NCBI GenBank assembly: GCA_031283085.1
Contig: JAITCM010000110.1
Span: 1 to 41,583, forward strand
Source: Chitinispirillales bacterium
GTDB lineage: Bacteria; Fibrobacterota; Chitinivibrionia; Chitinivibrionales; Chitinispirillaceae
Reading direction: 5' to 3'
Length of the DNA: 41,583 nt
Made by a program: the position numbers and the translations under genes
Notes under the pieces: model-generated
Seen by the model: the letters and a program-made list of their open reading frames with translations, nothing else
Told to the model about the DNA's origin: nothing
Database searches by the model: none
Part shown: in pieces, positions 5,201-39,043 of the stretch
Layout: every line of letters begins with the position of its first letter
How positions within the stretch are numbered: position 1 is the stretch's first letter

Positions 5201-7311
5201 TCAACACCGGTCGCCCGAATCAATTTGTGCTGGTTAGCCCCAGCGACCCCAATCTGGTGTTTAGCGCGACGGAGGGCGGCGCCGCCGCCACGGTGTTTCC
5301 GCTTACCGGGGGCGTGGCGACCTTCTGGGTGGGCACGGCGCCCGGTACCGACAGGGACATAAGCAACGCCGGCATAAACGTTTACGCGCTGCGCGCAAAT
5401 AACGCCGATGATATCGACGCGTCCATAGCGTCCGGCGGCAGGGAGAACATCAATTTCAATGTGCTTCTCACCGCCATTGAATACGCGGTGGTGTACGGCG
5501 ACGGTCAGGGGCGCCCTGACAGTTTGCGTATACGCTATTTGGAGGGCGGCGTTCCGTTGACCGGTGCCGGGGCGAAGCCGAACAGGGTTACGCTGACCTG
5601 GAGCGGGGTTGTCTTGACCGCTGAGGGCGCGGCGGTAAGCGTAGTGAACGACGTTGTGCTGGGCGCCAAGTTTACGGGGGATACGAGGCCGACGGGGAAG
5701 ACTTCCATCGGTGGAGTGGGGGCGGGCCTTGTGAAGGTGTACGGCGGCAGCGGCGGGACGGACGCGGTTGAGGAGGTGCCCTCTTTGTATGACGGTGTGG
5801 GGCCGGTGCTGGCCAACGGCGGCGCCGAGGATGGCGCGGACGGCAGCGCCCCGCTGCTATATGAGAATGTGGATAACAGCGATGTTGACACTATTGTCAT
5901 AACGTTCTCCGAGGATATCCGCGACGTTAGCAAGTTGACGAAGCTATTGTATAAGGCGCCGACGGCCAATCCCGGCGAGCCTTCCGGAGCGGTGGACGGT
6001 GTGCAGCTCACGGTGCTCGGCGTAACTCCCATCGGCGGCCGCGCCTACAAACTGGCTGTGAGGCACACGGACGACGGGCCCATTCCGGGGGGATGGCTCC
6101 GGCTTAACCCGGGCGCGGACGCCGTTGCCGATAATGCCGCGACGCAGTCGGCGGGCGTTGTGGAGGACAACAGGCCGCATGATAAAAACCGTTGGGTGAA
6201 GTTGAATTTGCAAGGCCGGCCCCCCACAGTCAAAAGCGCCTGGTACACCGCCAGCAGCGCCACGGGTAAGCCCAATTACGCCTACGTGGAGTTCAGCAAG
6301 GATATTGACGACCTGAGCAGGTGGTTCTCAGGCGGCAGCGTCAAATTTGACGCGGTCAAAACTGTGTCCGACGTCAGCTCGTTATTCGCCGTTGTGGACG
6401 GCGCCACGCTGAGGATAGACCTGAGCGCGGCGACCGACTTCGCGTCGCCGACGTCGACCGCCATCAGAACCTCCGGCGATATGCAGTTTACGTTGACTTT
6501 CGGCCCGGCCGTTGGGGAGGAATGGGGCTTCGTGTCGGATGTGGCCGCGGACAGGGCCAAACCGGTGCTGGCCTTAGGCGCCGAACTTAAGACCGGCTCG
6601 CCCAAGGGTGCCGCCGGAGAGGGCTTTAACCTGGACACGCTGGTTGTGTACTACAGCGAATCAATCAGCGCGACGGCGCTGGCGGCGGATAACCCTGTAA
6701 CGCTGCGGGCGAAAGGCGGCAAGTACTCATCGTTCGAGCCGGAGTTGCGGTTATTGGAGGCGCGCCCCGATAAGGGTTTTTATATGGCGAGATACCTGGT
6801 AGTCAACGAATTCCCACAGTCTGAGTACCCGGAATCGGGCGATTCTGTCCACATTTGCCATACTGCGCAAATCGGGGATTCCATGGTTGTGTCCAACGTG
6901 CAGGACTCCTCGAATAACAAATGGCAGCCGCTCACAGTTAAACGGGCGTCTAACTGGAAAATCATGGTCGGGAGCAACCCGTTCGTGAGCGACGCGTCGG
7001 GGGCGAAGTCCATGGGTTTTGTGTTTGACCCGAGGCCGCGGGGCGTGACGAAGATGACGGTCAAAGCCAATATAAAGATATTCGACAATTTGGGCGCGCT
7101 GGTGATGGATACGACGATTGATAACGGGGACGGGAGCGGTGATAAGATGATTTCCTGGAAATGGCGCGGCGAAAACAAGAGGGGTCGTCTGGTGGGTACC
7201 GGCACATATCTCCTCAGGGCGACGTGCGAATCGAAAGCGGACGGGGACAGCAGGCCGGACATATACAAAGTGCCCACCCAGATGTTAGGCGTGGTAAGGG
7301 GCAAGCGGTGA
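2257..7311 (+). CDS. Giant secreted protein: signal peptide, beta-helix, Ig-like repeats, FlgD-like C-terminus
   Basis: The protein has 1684 residues. Residues 1-31 form a signal peptide (basic KKRTK, then an Ala/Val-rich core ending AGWA). Residues ~32-545 look like a right-handed parallel beta-helix: an opening FKTVQEAVNAARPGQVIEI, repeated short N-rich turns such as IYNNTFYNNSG, and a closing DADIGAI. Residues ~830-920 resemble a Big_1-type Ig domain (VEDKWGNAVDVPVQV). From ~1080, four SbsA-like Ig units follow (RPDSLRIRY, VDTIVITFSEDI, KPNYAYVEFSKD, LDTLVVYYSESI). Residues ~1570-1684 are a FlgD-like domain (RGRLVGTGTYLLR). The ATG at 2257 has an AGGGGG ribosome site 5 bases upstream; the ATG at 2260 is an alternative. 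Beta-helix proteins often bind or cleave polysaccharides, but no lyase or hydrolase active site can be assigned, so the function remains open: adhesin, carbohydrate-binding or structural surface protein. Confidence 0.92.
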   Translation: MMTFAKKRTKYGVAGVGAALAVLTAAAAGWAADITVCKATGDDACMFKTVQEAVNAARPGQVIEIMDTETYEEQVTIDGRGEWNEASVWDQHNQGPIKAVKGGKNGITIKYAPTGARLFGTHARPTIKWKDVTNRSPNGTAEAARDGELTGTSGNFETCGALRIIRAQGVTIDGIKVDGGGQAPFENKSTWGIYPLFHGNAALTIVVSGGAVIRNCDITNGYFGINVKDRNTGGVFGNPNPNDNDRTIPLSGFGKVGNHIIEYNKIHNNVTGIFFESAWDLGSTVRYNLIYSNIHQASLLSGMDNPDNSVGGAILFKDMKYTPVAIYNNTFYNNSGNILGGWKIAAPHLLFNNIFGKPSYAVGARPPNSVGNAMFEHRFPYRMHNTLFSATADLKSEKRYINQCKRPGDYTVTPQIPEISGQELFGITQVRIDNNIPNPPTGPTQIECIGVLAGTTVTTDQFIAPGGLITGTVFEASANIRWLETSKSVDGTEDLFVSVDPASSDFLRPKWEHALVTQYIKNKGWTGIGMKNSDGADADIGAISSTGRAPATVARVKPSNVVLVTGTSAKASFFVTVESGQLNNAKISFLRWVAPLPTNPPEPSGNSAPAVPKANHHQLTAPAAAIAVNGNNTLTFTIPALPTLTGADSAGQYGFFEVVVSGTDAAGNPVASDIGFLPYRKLEYTLKMEVFTTAGVKTATVNAGEQYRLQVTPCKGSDPANCGSYTDGPLSEVSYELQSDAAAFMYTWNTETPFTQDGPAPSANITSAGKSYNVYFTRAGAETIMASGVANVGGGRLVFLGTADITVRPGAPDHLIFTDPIPLSQLGSAPATVINRGVDREVTVKVEDKWGNAVDVPVQVTISSNNTAVGDVGAPGNINTKTVTTTGTTGVAEFVARTAPGAAQNQTFDMTATAGITGGTQGQNDNVGRLRVGRALDRLEVFYSDNGPGKQWQTYYDPTVTIDRNVGEWAQIAVKVLVGDTVNTGRPNQFVLVSPSDPNLVFSATEGGAAATVFPLTGGVATFWVGTAPGTDRDISNAGINVYALRANNADDIDASIASGGRENINFNVLLTAIEYAVVYGDGQGRPDSLRIRYLEGGVPLTGAGAKPNRVTLTWSGVVLTAEGAAVSVVNDVVLGAKFTGDTRPTGKTSIGGVGAGLVKVYGGSGGTDAVEEVPSLYDGVGPVLANGGAEDGADGSAPLLYENVDNSDVDTIVITFSEDIRDVSKLTKLLYKAPTANPGEPSGAVDGVQLTVLGVTPIGGRAYKLAVRHTDDGPIPGGWLRLNPGADAVADNAATQSAGVVEDNRPHDKNRWVKLNLQGRPPTVKSAWYTASSATGKPNYAYVEFSKDIDDLSRWFSGGSVKFDAVKTVSDVSSLFAVVDGATLRIDLSAATDFASPTSTAIRTSGDMQFTLTFGPAVGEEWGFVSDVAADRAKPVLALGAELKTGSPKGAAGEGFNLDTLVVYYSESISATALAADNPVTLRAKGGKYSSFEPELRLLEARPDKGFYMARYLVVNEFPQSEYPESGDSVHICHTAQIGDSMVVSNVQDSSNNKWQPLTVKRASNWKIMVGSNPFVSDASGAKSMGFVFDPRPRGVTKMTVKANIKIFDNLGALVMDTTIDNGDGSGDKMISWKWRGENKRGRLVGTGTYLLRATCESKADGDSRPDIYKVPTQMLGVVRGKR
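5281..5394 (+). repeat. Block identical to bases 3-116 of the upstream paralogue
   Basis: Bases 5281-5394 are identical to 3-116 (offset 5278), and 5279-5280 also match bases 1-2. Identity may therefore continue upstream beyond the window. Immediately after 5394 the two genes diverge to ordinary paralogue similarity. The sharp edge suggests recent gene conversion or unequal recombination between the tandem copies. Confidence 0.9.
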
Positions 7312-18044: not shown

Positions 18045-18061
18045 GCGCCGCGAAGCGGCGC
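18045..18061 (+). other. Perfect GC hairpin downstream of the nucleotidyltransferase-like gene
   Basis: GCGCCGC, GAA, GCGGCGC form a perfect 7-bp stem, followed by ATATTTGTTT. It may serve as a weak terminator. It also resembles a degenerate copy of the GCGACGCGGTAGCGGCGC unit that begins the nearby repeat. Confidence 0.45.
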
Positions 18062-18075
18062 ATATTTGTTTGATG

Positions 18076-18248
18076 TTGCGACGCGGTAGCGGCGCTTGTT
18101 TATGGGGGGCGTTACGGGGGGAGGCGCGCCCCTGTGGGGCGCTGTTTGCCCTGATATGGTTCTTCCCCCCGTAGGGTGGGTAGTGGAATAAAAACGGGCA
18201 AAGCCCGTTTTTATGGAGCGAGGGAGGGCGTAGCCCTCCCCTTAAAAT
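18076..18248 (+). repeat. Structured intergenic repeat, copy 1
   Basis: About 173 bp shared with 26690-26830. It starts GCGACGCGGTAGCGGCGCTTGTT and ends GTAGCCCTCCCCTTAAAAT. Three hairpins are visible. The first is a 9-bp stem TTACGGGGGG-type / CCCCCCGTA (18113-18121 with 18165-18173), whose loop carries an extra 7-bp hairpin (18126-18142). The second is a 12-bp stem at 18188-18199 / 18203-18214 with loop AAA. The third is GGGAGGGC / GCCCTCCC at 18222-18229 / 18233-18240 with loop GTA. Its end lies about 30 bases upstream of the ParA-like start, so it is probably part of that gene's leader or promoter region. Confidence 0.85.
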
Positions 18249-23426: not shown

Positions 23427-23499
23427 GTAGGGGCGACCGTCCCGGTCGCCCTTTGTTGGGCAGGCGAACGGCAGGGCGACCGAGGGCGGTCGCCCCTAC
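23427..23499 (+). repeat. 73-bp palindromic intergenic element, copy A
   Basis: It begins GTAGGGGCGACCG and ends CGGTCGCCCCTAC, which are inverted repeats of each other. Each half also folds alone (GGGCGACCG ... CGGTCGCCC). The reverse complement of 36109-36181 matches it at 70 of 73 positions. It looks like a REP/MITE-type element of the widespread GTAGGGGCGACC class. Confidence 0.9.
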
Positions 23500-23539
23500 G
23501 ATGCGTTGTTGAACGGCGCAAACAAATGGTTGGATTTCT

Positions 23540-26564: not shown

Positions 26565-26716
26565 CCGCGAAGCGACAGTTGACTTTGATTTTGCGAAGTG
26601 GCCTTTGATTTTGACTTTGCGACGCGAAGCGACATTTGACTTTGATTTTGACTTTGCGACGCGGTAGCGGCGCTTGTTTGTTTGTTTTTCGCGACGCGGT
26701 AGCGGCGCTTGTTTAT
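26565..26716 (+). repeat. Degenerate tandem repeats between flhA and flhF
   Basis: At least five units of about 26-37 bases share a GCGA(C/A)GCG(A/G)-type GC half and a TTTGATTTTGACTTT AT half. The last two are the GCGACGCGGTAGCGGCGCTTGTTT units (26655 and 26690). They run directly into the structured repeat. The remaining start of this gap (26502-26564) shows nothing I can name. Confidence 0.7.
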
Positions 26717-26830
26717 GGGGGGCGTTACGGGGGGGATTTATCCCCCCGTAGGGTGGGTAGCGGAATAAAATATAGCGGCGTAGCCGCTATATTTTATGGA
26801 GCGAGGGAGGGCGTAGCCCTCCCCTTAAAA
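26690..26830 (+). repeat. Structured intergenic repeat, copy 2
   Basis: It is nearly identical to 18076-18248 in its outer parts. Hairpins: TACGGGGGG / CCCCCCGTA (26726-26734 with 26742-26750); a 15-bp stem 26765-26779 / 26783-26797 with loop GTA; and GGGAGGGC / GCCCTCCC. The middle stem (TATAGCGGC-type) has no sequence similarity to that of copy 1 (ACGGGC-type), yet both pair perfectly. The immediate flanks (GGGTGGGTAG-GGAATAAAA and TTTTATGGAGCGAGGGAGG) are conserved. It ends about 50 bases before flhF. Confidence 0.88.
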
Positions 26831-36043: not shown

Positions 36044-36108
36044 AGAGCCGCCTTTTGTCCTTTTATTAAAGTCAACATTTTGTTGCGTCAATCGTAAAAC
36101 CGTCGTAC

Positions 36109-36181
36109 GTAGGGGCGACCGTCCTCGGTCGCCCTGCCGTTCGCCTGTCCAATAAAGGGCGACCGGGACGGTCGCCCCTAC
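36109..36181 (-). repeat. 73-bp palindromic intergenic element, copy B (inverted)
   Basis: It has the same length as 23427-23499 and differs from its reverse complement at three positions. It carries terminal GTAGGGGCGACCG / CGGTCGCCCCTAC inverted repeats and two internal hairpins. It lies between lgt and proS, 65 bases upstream of the lgt start. Confidence 0.9.
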
Positions 36182-38783: not shown

Positions 38784-38955
38784 CCTGCGTAAATTTTATA
38801 AAAATTAGGCCCCGACCAACCCCAAATAGCACCCCTTTTTTCCCCTCAATTTCACGTATTTCTTCGGGATAGTTGTAGTCTAAATTATATGTACGTATAA
38901 CACATACAGTATAAATCATACCGATTTTGTGGTAATTGCGTACGCCCGAAACATG

Positions 38956-38974
38956 GTAGCCCTCCCCTTAAAAT
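38956..38974 (+). repeat. Fragment of the structured intergenic repeat (3' end only)
   Basis: GTAGCCCTCCCCTTAAAAT is identical to the ends of copies 1 and 2. As in copy 1, TTTGACTTT-type AT-rich sequence follows and leads to a start codon (39044). The upstream hairpins of the element are absent. Confidence 0.7.
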
Positions 38975-39043
38975 CGTATTTGACTTTGACTTTAAAAGAT
39001 TTTAAAGATTTTGACTTTATCAATTTGAATCGAGGCCAACACA

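Follow-up and report, generated by a model that had tools for sequence, protein, structure and literature searches.

An interspersed multi-hairpin DNA element of bacterial chromosomes, plasmids and microviruses as a candidate single-strand initiation signal

Two copies of a structured, interspersed DNA element, together with part of a third, lie in the window, by which we mean the whole stretch of 41,583 nucleotides analyzed (contig C83 of a draft genome of 2.58 Mb in 144 contigs), and the same element is present in at least four bacterial phyla. This element may be a single-strand initiation signal (ssi), a priming site for the complementary strand, that has become a multicopy intergenic repeat in chromosomes; we assign this reading a probability of roughly 45%. 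The element would be a DNA-level structure, active when its G-rich strand is single-stranded. Two of its hairpins, H2 and H4, would each engage an adjacent G-tract as an antiparallel third strand (a class I purine-motif intrastrand triplex), a hairpin of free sequence, H3, would space the second triplex, and the folded strand would be recognized by a primase or primosome loader, upon which the complementary strand would be primed. The evidence that carries this reading is the pairing and covariation of H3, the co-variation of a third-strand tract, a skeleton common to several phyla, and the location and strand of the element on phages and plasmids; from these we infer priming as the function.

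The skeleton reads Gn-CGTTRC-Gn-loop-Cn-GYAGA-GGGGG-TAGCGGA-(any hairpin)-GGAGCGA-GGGGGAGACTTCCCCC. Followed 5' to 3' along the G-rich strand, it begins with optional H1 hairpins (GCGCCGC-GAA-GCGGCGC type, often repeated), a G-run termed n1 and CGTTRC, and continues with H2 (Gn-loop-Cn closed by RC/GY), a G-tract (variants GGGTGGG, GGGGTGGG, GGGGGG, AGAGGGGG and TCTGGGGG), TAGC and H3. After H3 come GCGA, H4 with a purine tract as its 5' arm, CTTAAAAT and a T-rich stretch. By eye, the hairpins are G/C-rich. The H4 triloop is GNA (N being any base) in 61/61 copies of that class, and DNA minihairpins closed by such triloops are extraordinarily stable (Yoshizawa 1997, as cited in PMC11101458). 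The parts in the window are as follows.

18045..18061, + strand: H1 module of copy 1, hairpin GCGCCGC-GAA-GCGGCGC, from the sequence
18078..18095, + strand: H1 module of copy 1, GCGACGC-GGTA-GCGGCGC, from the sequence and direct repeat family D7
18104..18109, + strand: T1 third-strand candidate G6 of copy 1; its run length varies with the H2 arms from copy to copy
18116..18170, + strand: H2 hairpin of copy 1, G6...C6, the loop holding an inserted palindrome
18126..18142, + strand: nested palindrome GCGCCCC-TGT-GGGGCGC in the H2 loop of copy 1; it recurs in the loops of other copies, and alone elsewhere
18174..18181, + strand: T2 third-strand candidate GGGTGGGT of copy 1, mirror of the H4 purine arm with T opposite A
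18188..18214, + strand: H3 variable hairpin of copy 1, 12 bp, perfect (left arm 18188-18199, loop AAA 18200-18202, right arm 18203-18214)
18222..18240, + strand: H4 hairpin of copy 1, GGGAGGGC-GTA-GCCCTCCC, with a GNA triloop
26656..26673, + strand: H1 module of copy 2, first of two
26691..26708, + strand: H1 module of copy 2, second of two
26717..26722, + strand: T1 third-strand candidate G6 of copy 2
26728..26748, + strand: H2 hairpin of copy 2, (C)G-run / C-run(G)
26751..26758, + strand: T2 third-strand candidate GGGTGGGT of copy 2
26765..26797, + strand: H3 variable hairpin of copy 2, 15 bp, perfect (left arm 26765-26779, loop GTA 26780-26782, right arm 26783-26797)
26805..26823, + strand: H4 hairpin of copy 2, GGGAGGGC-GTA-GCCCTCCC
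38935..38988, + strand: partial third copy, H4 3' end and tail only, from direct repeat family D4 and a pattern search

An earlier, sequence-only reading of this DNA had described near-identical flanks around two perfectly paired stems of unrelated sequence, with a conserved hairpin on either side, and the coordinates above bear this out: H3 pairs over 12 bp in copy 1 and 15 bp in copy 2, H2 and H4 flank it in both, and H2 carries the nested palindrome in copy 1. Two further repeats were seen in the window. A 74-nt inverted repeat (23427-23500 / 36108-36181; 96% complementary, 12.6 kb apart) forms a separate repeat family, and long direct repeats (1-2045 / 5279-7305; 75-85% identity, offset about 5.26-5.28 kb) lie within large ORFs, suggesting duplicated repeat-domain proteins.

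Free arms and kept pairing in H3

Among 122 copies from seven genomes, parsed by their flanks, the outer 12 pairs of H3 occur as 55 distinct arm pairs, and 11 or 12 of these pairs are formed in 116 copies. The sequence-only reading had named genomic copies with unpaired stems as the observation that would speak against it; only two copies are clearly unpaired in this register, one at locus L153, where a palindrome has been inserted, and the divergent L146, and the claim survives the check. Mean Watson-Crick pairing is 11.05/12, compared with 6.23 when right arms are shuffled (2000 shuffles, maximum 7.09). For 53 distinct arm pairs, 95.6% of cells are paired vs 59.9% in shuffles, double-sided changes number 220 cells vs 69 expected, and the covariation score is 0.843 vs 0.167 for shuffled and 0.11-0.21 for slid arms; all of these H3 figures derive from related copies, some of them at loci found with a model that itself scores H3 pairing.

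The inference that replacement of both arms at once indicates selection on structure holds in one respect, in that structure rather than sequence is kept, but pairing by itself is weaker evidence of selection than had been assumed, because one arm can be copied into the other by template switching, a process with a known role in making and repairing hairpins (PMC8794818). Within the outer triplets, left TCC occurs solely with right GGA (7/7) and TAC solely with GTA (2/2), combinations that look like such arm copying, and paired replacement in H3 therefore cannot by itself decide between selection and mutation. That template switching or hairpin repair, by copying an arm so that the new one is matched at once, is a main cause of H3 pairing nevertheless seems doubtful. 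Beyond the triplets, the 9 G.T cells in 636 set against 220 double changes would be expected of it, whereas 61/120 copies keep a third-pair A.G mismatch that is met again elsewhere as AGAC/GGCT, and arm copying does not yield the mirror relation of the third strand presented below. Arm copying is compatible with the other readings weighed here and probably contributes to H3 change whichever of them holds. A caution of wider application is that paired-arm changes in DNA palindromes are, by themselves, no proof of a functional RNA. The remaining H3 mismatches comprise 9 G.T, 1 A.C and 5 others, and the 9:1 excess of G.T over A.C, which suits RNA no less than single-stranded DNA, is counted against the priming reading.

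Co-variation of a third strand

On either side of H3, the G-tract that precedes it and the H4 purine arm vary in concert, although one and the same H3 is found with differing tract types. The two are mirror images of one another, with G opposite G and A or T opposite A, as in the rule of antiparallel purine-motif triplexes (PMC4666352), and the third-strand, purine and pyrimidine blocks follow the class I triplex rules G*GC, A*AT and T*AT. For 39 distinct tract/purine-arm pairs from several phyla, the score is 6.87/9 vs 5.82+-0.13, a value reached in 0/20000 shuffles, although its significance is overstated because related copies are counted separately. Purine A faces A or T in 37/40 instances and purine G faces G in 95/102, while T opposite G never occurs. 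When tracts are sorted post hoc into five hand-defined types, the observed pairing is the unique best of 120 permutations, and a copy on the Granulicella plasmid pACIX903 (L334), read after the test, agrees with the rule at 9/9 positions (GGGTAGAGA vs GGGAAGAGA). Simple identity between tract and arm also beats its own shuffles, and would also suit Watson-Crick exchange with the C-arm, but it leaves nine T-opposite-A cases unexplained.

An analogous relation exists at H2. The G-run in front of it is matched to the length of the arms, 75 copies having the combination 4/4/4 and most of the remainder 6 with 5 to 8, and covariation of the closing pair links GC/GC with AC/GT. Related genomes have another unit upstream, of reversed build (class II), that displays a similar relation. 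From these sequence relations we infer that the element strand may form an intrastrand DNA triplex. The four G-tracts could instead assemble as a G-quadruplex with the hairpins as loops, an arrangement for which four G-runs on one strand supply the material and whose ambiguity with triplexes has been discussed for the TM_ECO repeats (PMC4666352); we consider it improbable, since the co-variation is pairwise (n1 with H2, left tract with H4) rather than joint among all four tracts, and T specifically opposite A would be unexpected.

The TM_ECO or BoxC repeats (Holder 2015, PMC4666352) resemble the element as intergenic repeats with a purine-motif third strand. TM_ECO is a class II, 37-nt repeat with 23 near-identical copies in E. 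coli K-12 and no strand bias (PMC4666352), whereas the present element has class I units, two in each copy, a free hairpin that separates third strand from duplex, and co-variation over many sequences. Through three-strand co-variation, the cellular relevance of intrastrand DNA triplexes becomes testable by three-strand compensatory mutation.

Phages, plasmids and the initiation reading

A covariance model built from 26 copies finds the element, at E 1e-5, in 119/168 Fibrobacterota genomes and 22/41 genera, the matches including most of one large genus in family f8 (presumed Fibrobacter). A match in one Spirochaetales MAG was extended to 12/98 of its relatives, the MAG itself counted. Searches by blastn with a compact consensus recovered plasmids of Sphingobium, Sphingomonas, Tardibacter, Magnetospira, Caulobacter, Polymorphobacter, Treponema saccharophilum and Granulicella, among others, alphaproteobacterial and acidobacterial hosts being represented, as well as eight Microviridae (seven related and one from yak faeces) and twelve IMG/VR contigs. 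The covariance model, in whose training none of these loci took part, identifies the element in 22/22 plasmid, phage and viral loci tested. Most microviruses and plasmids are without the element, E. coli genomes gave no blastn match, and two further patterns searched in viral contigs gave none.

The virion (+) strand carries the element in 8/8 of the matched Microviridae records. The microvirus element, in + orientation, overlaps the end of a small ORF directly before the DNA pilot protein gene, and in six aligned microviruses its core is 98-100% conserved, with conservation falling to 17-67% just upstream. Directly 3' of the element, the microviruses have another hairpin of strong conservation, CAGCGGGCCAT...ATGGCCCGCTG with TTGATGTCAATATGG (L276, L297-L301).

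On seven annotated plasmids, nearby genes of leading-region type are all encoded on the strand that does not carry the element. These opposing neighbours are ParB-like nuclease and ArdC; SSB; DUF4942/DUF3768 genes; toprim, thermonuclease, ParB-domain and methyltransferase-helicase genes; and ArdC, RepB-family primase and SSB. On an eighth plasmid, ParA and most genes are opposite to the element. Some neighbours, e.g. toxin-antitoxin genes, run in the same direction as the element, and on Treponema pTS1 and a Phenylobacterium plasmid no leading-type genes were found near it. Frpo/ssi structures are proposed to permit expression of leading-region genes from the transferred strand (PMC11541004, PMC7690428); the transferred strand would therefore be the template of these genes, and an element opposite to them would therefore lie on the transferred strand (the T-strand, identified here from neighbouring genes rather than from a mapped oriT), where a start site for the complementary strand must be.

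As an initiation signal, the element would serve the virion DNA of microviruses, the T-strand of conjugative plasmids as it enters, and exposed single-stranded template in the chromosome. The known ssi signals (G sites recognized by DnaG, primosome assembly sites, Frpo, and the sso of rolling-circle plasmids) are similar in being strand-specific, and the element shares with them the character of folded single-stranded DNA on the Microviridae virion strand and in plasmid leading-type regions. It differs in its far wider taxa and in its chromosomal copies (up to 60), and priming is putative here. R100 offers no counterpart either: model R1 gives no hit in positions 84000-94281, a stretch that contains the replication origin, repA and the sequence beyond repA and was searched as a whole rather than by exact G-site coordinates, and because of this the element is not equated with a known G site. 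Counted against priming are two phage contigs of satellite-like character that carry the element and present no obvious single-stranded stage. These two IMG/VR contigs (L274, L284) are about 13 kb long and have integrase, terminase and capsid genes.

Both kinds of entity, ssi signals and triplex repeats, are known. The element family, its breadth and its three-strand co-variation appear undescribed in the literature searched, which included few subscription papers; H4 strings were found in none of the PMC papers searched, and a looser string only in papers unrelated by title. More tentatively than the initiation reading itself, and as a view we regard as rather unlikely, the family might represent cross-phylum single-stranded DNA initiation sites built on intrastrand triplexes and common to microviruses, conjugative plasmids and chromosomes; the three-strand co-variation would then stand as comparative evidence of selection on a DNA triplex. 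Complementary-strand start is poorly known for plasmid single strands and single-stranded DNA phages outside the E. coli models, and the element provides a searchable candidate.

Chromosomal copies, gene context and mobility

By blastn, copy 1 matches 54 places in the source genome. The covariance model finds 39 there, 1 to 60 per genome in seven other genomes of this termite-gut genus and five in another genus of the same family, and pattern matches occur in the termite-gut Chitinispirillales genomes JAITUP (Spi319_bin3), JAITFI (Nx346_bin10) and LIUJ (GUT77). For the source genome (G000) and for G007 these numbers are lower bounds, because many contigs of the two drafts end within or beside a copy (e.g. 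C2, C28, C71, C105, C15, C31).

The proposed link to P-loop NTPase genes did not hold up. Genes downstream of the copies are of all kinds and unrelated functions, the flhA-flhF spacer contains no complete element in seven relatives of the genus and one further genome (that of G002 carries a fragment with the T1 part), and six relatives have no complete element upstream of the parA-like gene; the link is therefore a coincidence. Orientation with respect to genes was uneven. Between co-directional genes of the termite genus, as delimited by simple codon-usage calls, 64 copies run with the genes vs 12 against (binomial p 1e-9), and GC skew in this genus follows the genes. For 20 copies in other Fibrobacterota, no preference was found (4 vs 4), 7/20 lie between convergent genes, and 15/20 are on the strand of positive GC skew over about 20 kb (11/16, p 0.10, with orthologous sites removed). 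The skew counts bear on a prediction of the initiation reading, by which chromosomal copies would lie on the lagging-strand template. In three genomes of a single genus (L313, L315, L317), a site between convergent genes holds orthologous copies that have stayed in place with a changed H3 tip.

The suggestion of an RNA cis-regulator accordingly loses ground, its gene bias having no counterpart outside the termite genus and the element being antisense to its leading-type neighbours on plasmids. A structured RNA, whether a 5' leader or a small RNA, would account for the co-orientation with downstream genes, for the stable RNA fold (z -4.7 vs shuffles for copy 2, -3.6 for copy 1) and for the G.T excess among H3 mismatches. 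We judge it highly improbable, given the orientation counts and plasmid strands above, Rfam searches at the gathering threshold and at E 5 that returned nothing convincing, and GNA loops and G*G.C triads that favor DNA. Folded as DNA, copy 2 has a z of -6.7.

The other alternative named by the sequence-only reading, a mobile palindrome, fares better, as the element is an interspersed and apparently mobile repeat. Whether it is only that, a mobile or converted palindromic repeat (a REP/BIME or BOX-like mosaic) without host function, spread and homogenized within each genome, its hairpins serving only its own movement, is a distinct possibility, though short of probable. Such a repeat would be consistent with the absence of the element in relatives before flhF and before the parA-like gene, with the many contig ends in copies and with palindromes nested within palindromes. 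Four intergenic sites are, moreover, occupied in two species each, and every time the species has its own characteristic version there, a sign of in-place replacement or conversion. On the other side, no cognate enzyme is evident: one Y1 transposase was found in the source genome and none in G007, the genome with most copies (about 60; 68% complete). The detailed cross-phylum skeleton and its near-invariance in microviruses also suggest a function beyond spreading.

Several known repeat families invite comparison. REP/BIME and REPIN palindromes, which are associated with RAYT transposases, are likewise short intergenic palindromes in mosaics, but the element is without a consistent RAYT and has a detailed skeleton conserved across phyla. 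RAYT was rejected as a driver on the same transposase counts. The sole Y1 transposase gene (L031, match 1501-1845) is flanked by GCACCCC...GGGGTGC palindromes, one with a palindrome in its loop. Integron attC sites would be expected to have a GTTRRRY box, and were dropped by eye as a candidate, the element having none. The BOX elements of Streptococcus pneumoniae are similarly modular, structured, interspersed and near genes, and are almost confined to a few streptococci (PMC3049150); the element differs from them in sequence, and was set apart at that level rather than by detailed comparison.

An extra short palindrome lies within the H2 or H4 loop, beside H2 or in H3 in 17/122 parsed copies, as counted by eye. 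A small palindrome of AACA-GCGCCCC-ACT-GGGGCGC type occupies H2 or H4 loops in the window (18126-18142) and at L129, L133, L136, L141, L161, L180, L201 and L208, and the short arms flanking it differ among copies and still pair mutually. A second, GGCTCGGCGGTGAAACCGCCGGTG, sits between CGTT and the H2 arm (L138, L141, L143), and a third, GGCTTCGCCGAGATAAACAAG, lies within H3 of one L153 copy. A separate module, GTTTTCC-(variable stem)-GGAAAACGTTAAGGAAAGGG, combines conserved flanks, a free stem and a purine mirror (L123, L126, L128, L130, L132, L140).
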